Shown here piece by piece: positions 8,972 to 13,295 of a DNA stretch of 33,038 bases. The translations under genes were made by a program, and so were the position numbers. This stretch comes from Geobacter sp. (GTDB taxonomy: Bacteria > Desulfobacterota > Desulfuromonadia > Geobacterales > Pseudopelobacteraceae), in contig VFJM01000025.1 in assembly GCA_009886055.1 (NCBI GenBank), forward strand, positions 1 to 33,038, in the 5' to 3' direction. A model generated the notes under the pieces. It ran no database searches and was not told the DNA's origin. It worked only from the letters and a program-made list of their open reading frames with translations. Numbering within the stretch: position 1 is the first letter of the stretch; every line of letters starts with the position of its first letter.

Positions 8972-10348
8972 TCAGTTTCCCGCTCTCACGTTCTGAATTT
9001 CACTCCATACGCGCTCACGAGCCGTTCCACCCGGGATATTACGGGCATTGACACTGGCCTCAACGGTAATGCATTCAAAGATATCATTGTCGATCCTGGC
9101 GGAGAAGAGTTTCCATTCCTCGAGCGACAGCTCGGTAATATCCTTCTTGTTTTTCACACAGTACGCGACCGACTTACCGACCGCCTCGTGGGCATCACGG
9201 AAGGCGAGCCCCTTCCGCACCAGATAATCGGCGACATCAGTGGCCGTCGAGAACCCCTGCCCCGCTGCCGTGCGCATGCTTTCCGTGTTGACCCGCATTT
9301 CACGGATCATATCGGCAAAGATCTTGAGGCTCCCCTTGACCGTGTCAATCGTATCAAAGAGCGGCTCCTTGTCTTCCTGCATATCCTTGTTGTAGGCGAG
9401 CGGAAGAGCCTTCATGGTCGTTAGGAGCGCCATCAGATTGCCGTAGACACGGCCGGTCTTGCCCCGCACCAGTTCCGGCACATCCGGGTTCTTCTTCTGT
9501 GGCATGATTGATGATCCGGTACAGAACCCGTCCGACAGTTCGATGAATTGAAATGCACTGGTCGACCAGAGAATCAACTCTTCCGAAAAGCGGGAGAGAT
9601 GCATCATCAGAATTGATGAGTCCGCCAGAAACTCCAGGGCGAAGTCCCGGTCGGAAACCGCGTCCAGCGAGTTGCGGGTGATCGCCGGAAAACCGAGCTG
9701 CTCGGCAACATATTCACGGTCGATCGGAAAGGTCGTGCCGGCCAGCGCGCCTGCTCCCAGCGGGAGAACGTTGACCCGCTTGAGGCAGTCATCCAGCCGC
9801 CCCTTGTCGCGTTTGAACATCTCGACATACGCCATCAGGTGATGGGCAAACAGGATCGGCTGGGCGGTCTGCAGATGGGTGAAACCGGGCATAAGCGTAT
9901 CCATGTTGGCCTCTGCCTGGGTCAGCAGGGCATCGATCAGCAGGTCGAGATAGGTTGTTATCTGAACGGTCTCATCCCGCAGGTAGAGGCGGATATCCAG
10001 CGCCACCTGATCGTTGCGTGAACGGCCGGTGTGCAGACGCTTCCCCGCTTCACCGATCGCGGCGGAGAGCCGCGCTTCGATGTTCATATGGATATCTTCG
10101 AGGCTGATGGAAAAATCGAACTCCCCCGCCTCGATCTGCTCCAGGATTTTACGCAGACCGTGGACGATCTGCTCGACGTCTTCGAGCGGGATGATCCCCT
10201 GTTTACCCAGCATGCGGGCATGGGCGACCGATCCGCGTATGTCCTGGTGATAGAGGCGCTTGTCGAATTGGATAGAGGAGGTGAACTCCTCGACGAATTT
10301 ATCGGTGGGCTGGGTGAAGCGGCCGCCCCAGAGCTTATCTTTTGACAT
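8972..10348 (-). CDS. argH: Argininosuccinate lyase
   Basis: ArgH cleaves argininosuccinate to arginine and fumarate, the last step of arginine synthesis. The superfamily signature [16 protein letters not shown] is intact. The N-terminus (KLWGGRF) and the 458-residue length are standard. The start is supported by a purine-rich AGGAGAAAG just before the ATG. It is separated from argG by the Nudix and nitrilase-like genes, and a 113-nt gap precedes it. That gap may hold its own promoter, although no convincing boxes were found. Confidence 0.97.
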
Positions 10349-10452: not shown

Positions 10453-10469
10453 GCGGGTATTTTACCCGC
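10453..10469. other. Short perfect hairpin overlapping the nitrilase-like stop codon
   Basis: GCGGGTA and TACCCGC form a 7-bp stem with a 3-nt loop, and the nitrilase-like stop codon lies within it. There is no U-tract on the minus strand, so it is at most a weak pause or stability element before argH. Confidence 0.45.
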
Positions 10470-11607
10470 CTGCCGCCGATTCATCGACGGTGATCTTGCT
10501 CCACACGCCAACCTCATCGACAGCCATGATCGCATGAACCTTGAGCGGAATCCGCGAGGTGCGCGGGTCAATCTCGTGCTGCGGAGGGAGGTTGAAATAG
10601 AGCAGCCTCGTTCCCTTGCCGAAGCGGAGTCGACAGACCGGGGCGCCATCAAAGTCATCCGTGGCAAATTCCGAGAGGCTGACTTGTGCCAGGCGATGAC
10701 TATGGTTGATCACGACGTACGAGCGGCCATAAGCGTCCTCTGCGGGAGAGCCTTCAATCGTGGTCTCCTCCGACACGTTGCCGAAGACGGTCACCGTCTC
10801 GCGCACACCCGGCATATCCTCCAGGTATTCGCCGTAGAAGCCGCTTATCACTTCACGATAGGCGTGGTGCTCCGGCTTGGGGTTGCACTGGATGACGAAC
10901 AGGGCGTCCAGCCCCTGCCGGGTCGTAAAGTAGAGCTGGTTGGCGTGGTCGATAATCTGCCGTATGTTCGACGTGTGCAGGTCGCGATACAGGTAATCGA
11001 GACAGATGATGGCCATGAAATTGAAACAGGAGGGACGACAGCGGAACAGGTAGAAATGCCTGCCACGATACAGGTCATGAAACGTGTCGATGTACTCCTC
11101 ACCGTGAAAGGGGTGACTCTTGGCCTCAAGAAAGACCCGCAGCCGGCCGTCGGCTTCCTTGACGGCGACGCAGCACCAGTTGACCGGCATATCCAGCACA
11201 TCGCCCGAATCGATATCGTGATCCACAAACCCGATCGCCTCGGCGTTATCCGCGCTGAAACGTTCCAGCAGGGCACGGTACTCACGCAACCGGATATGTT
11301 CGACACCGAACACCGTTACCGTATTCGGGCGGAATCGCTGTTCGATTACTGCCAGCATATCGTCGAAGCGGGAGGCGGGGAGGCTCGATTCGGGAAACAT
11401 CAGAAAATGGAGCTTCTTCAGGTTCCCTTCCCCGGCCGCCACCAGTTCCAGCACCGAGCTGACCAGGCGCCACTTTTCTTCAGGATCGACCAGGCAGAAG
11501 CCGATTTCCGCCCGCTTGAGATGGTTGGGAATCTGGGCGACCATGCAGTGCAGGTGATGCCCGAGGGGAAATTCCAGGTTTATCTTTTTATCGATAATTT
11601 CAGGCAT
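10462..11607 (-). CDS. Divergent nitrilase-superfamily protein
   Basis: This 381-residue protein of unassigned function reads as a carbon-nitrogen hydrolase fold. A putative Glu-Lys-Cys triad is visible in the right order: E73 in FLMFPESSLP, K163 in FLEAKSHPF, and C202 in FMAIICLDYL. E170/E171 is near the position of the second catalytic glutamate. A C-terminal region of about 80 residues goes beyond a standard nitrilase core. The ORF track adds 50 codons of Nudix shadow; the ATG at 11607 overlaps the Nudix stop (ATGCCTGA), so the two are translationally coupled. Its substrate could be an amide or nitrile, or it could have lost catalysis. No link to arginine chemistry can be claimed beyond position. 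Confidence 0.7.
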   Translation of the reverse strand: MPEIIDKKINLEFPLGHHLHCMVAQIPNHLKRAEIGFCLVDPEEKWRLVSSVLELVAAGEGNLKKLHFLMFPESSLPASRFDDMLAVIEQRFRPNTVTVFGVEHIRLREYRALLERFSADNAEAIGFVDHDIDSGDVLDMPVNWCCVAVKEADGRLRVFLEAKSHPFHGEEYIDTFHDLYRGRHFYLFRCRPSCFNFMAIICLDYLYRDLHTSNIRQIIDHANQLYFTTRQGLDALFVIQCNPKPEHHAYREVISGFYGEYLEDMPGVRETVTVFGNVSEETTIEGSPAEDAYGRSYVVINHSHRLAQVSLSEFATDDFDGAPVCRLRFGKGTRLLYFNLPPQHEIDPRTSRIPLKVHAIMAVDEVGVWSKITVDESAAGG

Positions 11608-12061
11608 CGACGCTATCCGCGAGGTCGTGCAAAGAGAGCTCCGGAAACAGTTTCCCCAGTATGTACCGCGCACCGGCCGGCATGGCGTAACCGCCCAACT
11701 CGCGACTGGGAACCCAGTCGGCCTCGGCGACCTCGTGCGTGTTCTTGACAACATCACAATAGAGCGGACGGCAGCGGTAATAGAGGATCAAGAAGTGGCA
11801 GTTTTCCTCACCGGGAGTGAGGTGTTCGAAGACATCGATCAGCCCCTCGATTTCTATCTCCAGACCTACCTCTTCATGCACCTCCCGCTTCAGCGCCTCC
11901 AGGATCGGTTCGCCGAGGTCGATCTTGCCGCCCGGCATAACCCACAGATCGAGGAAGGGGGGGATACTCCGCCTGGTCAGGAGCACCCGCCCGTCGTCGT
12001 CCACGATCACCGCCACAACCGAGGTGACGATGTGTTCTTTCTTGTAGCGCTTCTTCGTCAA
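11600..12061 (-). CDS. Nudix hydrolase
   Basis: A complete Nudix box (G-x5-E-x7-REVxEExGL) spans residues 45-67, with REVHEEVGL as its catalytic helix. The enzyme therefore should hydrolyse a nucleoside diphosphate linked to another moiety; the substrate cannot be read from sequence. The 153-residue length is typical of single-domain Nudix proteins. The start codon appears to be TTG, 4 nt after the argG stop, with only a weak AAGAAG upstream, so expression probably depends on argG translation. Its stop overlaps the nitrilase-like start by 8 nt. Confidence 0.88.
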   Translation of the reverse strand: MTKKRYKKEHIVTSVVAVIVDDDGRVLLTRRSIPPFLDLWVMPGGKIDLGEPILEALKREVHEEVGLEIEIEGLIDVFEHLTPGEENCHFLILYYRCRPLYCDVVKNTHEVAEADWVPSRELGGYAMPAGARYILGKLFPELSLHDLADSVDA

Positions 12062-12065
12062 TCCA

Positions 12066-13295
12066 TTACTTCTTTTTTGCAGCCTGCATCAGCGAACGGA
12101 TACGTAGCCGCAGGGAGTTGATCTTGATGAACCCCTCGGCATCGGCCTGGTTGAAGACCTGATCCTTCTCGAAGGTGGCGAAGTCAAGGTTGAAGAGCGA
12201 GTCGGAGTCGGACTTGCGGCCGACGGTGCGGCAGAGCCCCTTGTACAGCTTGACGCGGGCTACGCCGTTGACGCACTTTTGCGAGTCGTCGATCAGCGTC
12301 TGCAGCATCAGACGCTCGGGAGAGAACCAGTATCCTGCGTAGATCTGTTTGGCATATTCAGGAATCAGGCCATCGCGGATACGCATGACTTCACGGTCCA
12401 TGGTGATCTGCTCGACTGCCGAATGTGCTTCGCGCAGGATCGTGCCGCCGGGGGTCTCGTAGACGCCACGCGACTTCATGCCGACGGAGCGGTTTTCAAG
12501 GAGGTCGACACGGCCGACGCCATGCTGGCCGCCGAGGTAGTTGAGGTGCGCCAGGAGCTGTGCCGGGGTCATCTTTTCGCCGTCAACGGCCACGGCGTTG
12601 CCGTTTTTGAACTCGATCTCGACGTACTGCGGCTTGTTGGGCGCCTTCTCCGGAGATTTGGTCAGGACATACATCTCTTCCGGCGCTTCGGCCCAGGTAT
12701 CCTCCAGGATGCCCCCTTCGAAGGAGATGTGCAGCAGATTGCGGTCTGACGACCAGGGGCGCTTCTTGATGGTCGGAATGGGAATGTTATTCTTCTTGGC
12801 GTATTCGATCAGCGCCTGGCGGCTGTTCAGGTCCCACATCCTCCAGGGGGCGATGACCTTGATGGCCGGATCGAAGTGGTAGTAGGCCAGCTCGAAACGG
12901 ACCTGGTCGTTCCCCTTGCCGGTGGCGCCGTGGGAAACGGCGTCGCACTTCTCTTTGGCGGCGATTTCCATCTGGCGCTTGGCGATCAGCGGGCGGGCGA
13001 TGGAGGTGCCGAGCAGGTAGTGCCCCTCGTAGATCGCGTTGGCGCGGAACATCGGGAACACGAAGTCGCGCACGAACTCTTCGCGCAGGTCATCGATGTA
13101 CACCTTGTCGGCGCCGGTTGCCAGTGCCTTTTCGCGGACCGGGTCAAGCTCGTCACCCTGTCCCAGATCGGCCGAAAAGGCGACCACCTTGCAGCCGTAC
13201 TCGTTTTTCAGCCATTTCAGGATGATGGAGGTGTCCAGCCCGCCCGAATAGGCCAGAACGATCTTTTTGATTTCCTGCTTCTTTGCTTGTGCCAT
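12066..13295 (-). CDS. argG: Argininosuccinate synthase
   Basis: ArgG condenses citrulline and aspartate using ATP. The N-terminal PP-loop [16 protein letters not shown] and the following [11 protein letters not shown] are diagnostic. The 409-residue length is normal. AAGGAG lies 9 nt before the ATG. It follows argF by 28 nt and precedes the Nudix gene by 4 nt, in the same transcriptional direction as all of argBDFG. Confidence 0.98.

Follow-up and report, generated by a model that had tools for sequence, protein, structure and literature searches.

What do a Nudix hydrolase and a 381-residue protein that finds no match in Pfam or NCBIfam do between argG and argH of a Geobacter arginine operon, and do they belong to arginine synthesis or to each other? 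The window (the whole 33,038-nucleotide stretch of contig VFJM01000025.1) carries argB, argD, argF and argG upstream of the two genes and argH after them, and all of these genes lie on the minus strand. The pair also has an AAA ATPase and a histidine kinase among its neighbours. The features are as follows.

8972..10348, minus strand: argH, argininosuccinate lyase, downstream neighbour (Pfam Lyase_1 and ASL_C2)
10462..11607, minus strand: predicted nitrilase-fold amidase gene, ATG start, 381 residues (PADLOC LmuA, E 2e-24; all significant fold matches in the nitrilase superfamily)
11600..11607, minus strand: stop/start overlap of the Nudix and nitrilase-like genes, ATGCCTGA, 8 nt, read from the sequence and recurring among relatives
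11600..12061, minus strand: Nudix hydrolase gene, TTG start, 153 residues (Pfam NUDIX, E 8e-22; nearest PDB sequences MutT-type)
11861..11929, minus strand: Nudix box, residues 45-67, G-x5-E-x7-REV-x-EE-x-GL, read from the translation
12066..13295, minus strand: argG, argininosuccinate synthase, upstream neighbour (Pfam Arginosuc_synth)

Gene layout and the Nudix protein

The argG stop codon ends at 12066 and the Nudix open reading frame runs from 12061 to 11600, sharing positions 11600-11607 with the nitrilase-like frame (11607-10462), in agreement with the original prediction of a TTG start 4 nt past argG and an 8-nt overlap of the two genes. The same overlap is found in 19 of 63 relatives measured, and for 57 of these 63 the spacing from Nudix stop to nitrilase start falls in the range -20 to +19 nt. 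The 8-nt overlap suggests that translation of the two genes is likely to be coupled. TTG is the commonest Nudix start codon among the relatives (19), followed by ATG (13) and GTG (10). Promoter-like and terminator-like sites were also looked for in the vicinity of the pair, with no useful result.

The Nudix protein contains a complete GX5EX7REUXEEXGU box, the residues of which are conserved across 71 homologues. It resembles the MutT-type Nudix hydrolases in this box, in its Pfam NUDIX match and in its closest PDB relatives by sequence, but it falls under every NCBIfam equivalog cut-off, and so no specificity is assigned to it.

Fold of the nitrilase-like protein

Neither single-sequence nor profile searches of the PDB find a relative of the 381-residue protein, and it has no match to the Pfam CN_hydrolase model (PF00795), which is matched by only 2 of the 56 family members (best E 0.011). 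A score above the gathering threshold of PF00795 is a detection aid, however, and not a defining chemical feature of the nitrilase superfamily. Since this sequence model misses the branch, membership was decided by the fold and the catalytic residues. An AlphaFold2 model built from an alignment of 56 homologues has a pLDDT of 84.9 and a pTM of 0.89, and replaced an earlier model made with close relatives only (pLDDT 71). Comparison of the model with the PDB gives 49 chains at E<=0.001, every one of which belongs to the nitrilase superfamily, and the model has the alpha-beta-beta-alpha sandwich expected of a nitrilase fold, as had been proposed. On the predicted fold together with the catalytic residues, the protein is a member of the nitrilase superfamily.

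The top matches are aliphatic amidase (AmiE) and formamidase (AmiF), with E about 1e-8, probability 1.00 and the same order of the catalytic triad, but the identity is only 10-13%, and the protein here is missed by the Pfam model. The TM-scores are moderate, mostly 0.3-0.6, suggesting that the protein represents a divergent branch. A viral structure library contains a single match, a phage CN hydrolase with E 3e-5. N-carbamoylputrescine amidase and other canonical nitrilases were considered as the identity of the protein and rejected; the four CN_hydrolase genes of this genome are separate from it.

About 80 extra C-terminal residues had been described. A tail is present, but the model has strands at residues 297-301, 314-317, 324-329 and 334-340, which we take to close the nitrilase sandwich, and so the tail is probably nearer 40 residues. 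Aliphatic amidase and formamidase likewise carry long C-terminal arms.

Catalytic residues

The positions of the presumed catalytic residues are as follows.

11389..11391, minus strand: E73 codon, presumed general base, FPE motif, invariant in 80 of 80 homologues
11119..11121, minus strand: K163 codon, EAKSHP motif, invariant in 80 of 80
11095..11100, minus strand: E170-E171 codons, candidate second glutamate of the nitrilase tetrad, both invariant in 56 aligned members
11002..11004, minus strand: C202 codon, presumed nucleophile, ICLDYLYR motif, invariant in 80 of 80

The Glu-Lys-Cys order E73, K163, C202 was numbered correctly in the original prediction, and none of the 80 homologues, down to about 49% identity, has lost a triad residue; H165, E170 and D204 are also invariant among them. 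E170/E171 lies 7-8 residues past the lysine, as in aliphatic amidases, and its spacing makes it a candidate for the second glutamate of the amidase tetrad, which we take to be the equivalent of amidase E142.

Distribution and gene order

The nitrilase gene is present in 88 of 141 sampled genomes of the order and in 121 of 195 of the class, and it is almost absent from the rest of the wider phylum searched. Geobacter argillaceus, Pelotalea chapellei, Trichlorobacter thiogenes and Geomonas diazotrophica are among the named carriers; the last three are cultured and have both genes. From these names the class is taken to be Desulfuromonadia. Most loci that extend far enough retain the order argF-argG-nudix-nitrilase-argH; they come from 16 family groups, with nitrilase identities of 49-90%, and both genes stand beside a full argH in 59 loci. 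No copy of the nitrilase gene was found in 50,697 phage records, in 72,556 plasmid records or in a scan of viral contigs. A cellular role would agree with this absence and with the stable location throughout the class.

The pair is usually kept, moved and lost together

Within the order, 87 genomes have both genes, 52 have neither, and one genome each has one gene alone (Fisher p 2e-36, ignoring shared ancestry); for the class the counts are 116 with both, 64 with neither, and 5 and 6 with one alone (Fisher p 2e-37, again ignoring shared ancestry). The state with neither gene requires about 9 changes on the best ArgH tree, and at least 5 on strongly supported branches. The nitrilase state differs within 7 independent pairs; the Nudix gene changes with it in 5 of them, runs against it in none and ties in 2 (sign test p 0.0625, the limit for a sample of this size). 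Both genes are gone from an intact argG-argH junction in nine sampled genomes (L135-L142 and L144). Six other loci (L017, L033, L034, L039, L128 and L129) have the pair at a distance from the arg genes, with its two members still adjacent, and the relocated pairs fall at three places on the nitrilase tree. Horizontal transfer of the relocated pairs was considered, since L128, L129 and L039 stand apart from their family on the nitrilase tree, but it is not claimed because the AU test does not reject monophyly of the family (p 0.19).

The near-perfect co-occurrence, the joint loss and the adjacency after moving bear out the earlier suggestion that the two genes form a real pair. A function tied to arginine metabolism had also been suggested, and this link is weakened, because several lineages that have neither gene keep argF-argG-argH intact and other genomes have the pair elsewhere. 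Intact arg operons without the pair, together with the relocated pairs, indicate that arginine synthesis can do without the pair and the pair without the arginine operon. Since the two genes are usually kept, moved and lost together, they probably make up one unit of two enzymes and not a step in making arginine. Therefore, the pair itself, and not its link to arginine, is probably the functional unit, and the pair is dispensable for arginine synthesis.

Possible function of the pair

Observation extends to the fold, the conserved residues, the pairing and the dispensability; beyond these, we infer the substrate and the order of the steps. Tentatively, and with less than even confidence, we favour a single unit of two small-molecule hydrolases, most likely cleaning up a side-product or a damaged metabolite. 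The Nudix enzyme would act on a nucleotide-type metabolite by cleaving a diphosphate bond. Either this compound or the Nudix product would be the substrate of the amidase, which would hydrolyse a C-N bond of the amide or ureido kind. A nucleotide-linked amide, suggested earlier as the substrate, is a guess. In the amidase, C202 would act as the nucleophile and E73 as the base, K163 would stabilise the tetrahedral intermediate, and E170/E171 would provide the second glutamate. The pair would be expressed with the arg genes because of its ancestral place in their operon. What counts against a clean-up unit is that the nearest described relatives of the nitrilase-like protein are immune effectors and not metabolic enzymes. 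The genomes with one gene alone and the nitrilase copies without an adjacent Nudix gene, both described below, also weigh against a single unit, and the sign test on independent pairs reaches only p 0.0625.

These relatives are found with defence profiles. The PADLOC profile of the Lamassu protein LmuA (PDLC03850) matches all 56 members (best E 1.8e-29; protein here 2e-24), and a profile of DRT/UG5 nitrilases matches 31 of 56 (best E 2e-7). The relatedness shown is one of sequence and not of function; the comparison places its nearest described relatives among the LmuA/DRT anti-phage effector nitrilases rather than in the Nit or biotinidase branches. C-N hydrolase is listed among the effector domains of LmuA in a review (PMC10586767), and a 2026 paper shows the nitrilase domain of DRT1 to be an effector in abortive infection, with a substrate that it states as unknown (PMC13275509).

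The likeness to LmuA covers residues 9-302, which align with positions 12-304 of the 604-position profile. A full-length LmuA has a C-terminal docking region, whereas the match here stops at position 304 and the protein has only 381 residues. Lamassu also differs in its genes: the gene here has no adjoining LmuB SMC or LmuC, but a Nudix partner and a place in a biosynthetic operon. With DRT1/UG5, which belong to the class 3 defence reverse transcriptases, the profile similarity is weak and the catalytic residues are alike (PMC13275509), but the protein here stands alone without a reverse transcriptase domain. Pfam finds no such domain in it, and the PADLOC RT-nitrilase profile is touched in its nitrilase part only. 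No SMC, RT or other sensor gene adjoins the pair at the locus, and the relatives likewise show arg genes. With no partner of either the SMC or the RT type, the protein is placed outside both the Lamassu and the DRT systems.

The nearest relative found outside the class, a fragment from genome G527 of a different class (L166), matches LmuA with E 4e-64 and the family of the protein here by profile at 26% identity (E 5e-11). The LmuA-type fragment shares the motifs VN-C---K, C-D and N--P-H with the protein here, and it adjoins HsdR and HsdS of a type I restriction-modification system and a Fic protein. Its gene (L166:5905-6627) overlaps the end of hsdR and adjoins the Fic-family PADLOC candidate PDC-S24; the 10-kb contig shows no SMC gene. 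Another outside relative (L113, genome G181) has 586 residues and keeps the FPE, K-HP and IC motifs.

The main and live rival to the clean-up unit, unlikely and more surprising if true, is a stress or defence role, in which the pair would act on its own as a stress module or an anti-phage module. When triggered, the LmuA-like nitrilase would be a toxic effector, destroying a metabolite that is essential and bears an amide or amine, and the Nudix enzyme would restrain this effector or share in nucleotide depletion. In addition to the effector kinship, the activity of the DRT1 nitrilase domain in abortive infection (PMC13275509) and the restriction-modification and Fic neighbours of the L166 fragment, the repeated loss and relocation of the pair is consistent with such a module. 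Two nitrilase copies without an adjacent Nudix gene (L118 and L104) adjoin defence or toxin genes, and the moved pair in L017 adjoins a HepT-like gene. Eight sampled nitrilase copies lack an adjacent Nudix gene, however, and they have no common neighbours; most have ordinary ones, and in several of these genomes the arg operon contains a Nudix copy. The fixed position in a biosynthetic operon across 16 family groups, the absence from phage, plasmid and viral collections and the lack of an adjoining sensor gene also argue against a defence module.

It is equally improbable that the two proteins are unrelated housekeeping enzymes sharing an operon for expression only. Each gene occurs without the other in several genomes, the Nudix gene in G446, G458, G472, G476, G498 and G499 and the nitrilase gene in G467, G507, G511 and G512, and in the f99 genomes the Nudix gene is still in the operon with the nitrilase gene missing, but the near-perfect co-occurrence and the joint relocation and loss are against this idea. 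A repair step specific to arginine synthesis, for example one that hydrolyses cyclised argininosuccinate or carbamoylated by-products arising around ArgF, ArgG and ArgH, is quite unlikely: the ancestral site lies exactly between argG and argH throughout the class, and N-carbamoyl-amino-acid amidohydrolases and N-carbamoylputrescine amidase are among the fold matches, but argFGH is kept without the pair in many genomes, relocated pairs are distant from the arg genes, and matches at 10-15% identity carry no information on the substrate. Literature searches on argininosuccinate with Nudix and Geobacter, and on guessed G. sulfurreducens locus tags, yielded nothing useful.

The two hydrolases are a class-wide gene pair, one half of which goes unrecognised by Pfam and NCBIfam. 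With a small probability, the two genes form an immune or stress module, or are a cellular counterpart of the Lamassu and DRT nitrilase effectors, kept in a core operon throughout the class; if so, its substrate would reveal the targets of those effector nitrilases. Being standalone, conserved, genetically linked and present in culturable anaerobes, the relative described here gives tractable access to the chemistry of the effector-nitrilase branch, and the Nudix partner is a hint towards nucleotide chemistry.

Additional observations

The outside relative of 586 residues (L113:2539-4299) is an LmuA-like nitrilase-fold protein near LmuA in length, with no Pfam match; downstream of it are indolepyruvate-oxidoreductase-like genes (named by eye) rather than SMC, and no evident defence genes adjoin it. 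In L166, positions 586-2214 encode an HsdS with an N-terminal MNT-like nucleotidyltransferase domain in a single frame, preceded by a nucleotidyltransferase-substrate-binding gene. Genes for AbiEi-AbiEii and a ParE toxin lie near the orphan nitrilase copy of L104 (3343-5398). Where the pair is absent in L133 and L134 (genomes G075 and G101), other genes occur upstream of argH, between it and argG, namely one for a NERD nuclease-related protein in L133 and ones for AbiEii-type and YafQ/RelE-like toxins in L134. A contig filed under Candidatus Cloacimonadota (L038) carries argH and a nitrilase gene that hardly differ from the copies in a Geobacter MAG (L032), and its assignment is probably a binning error.
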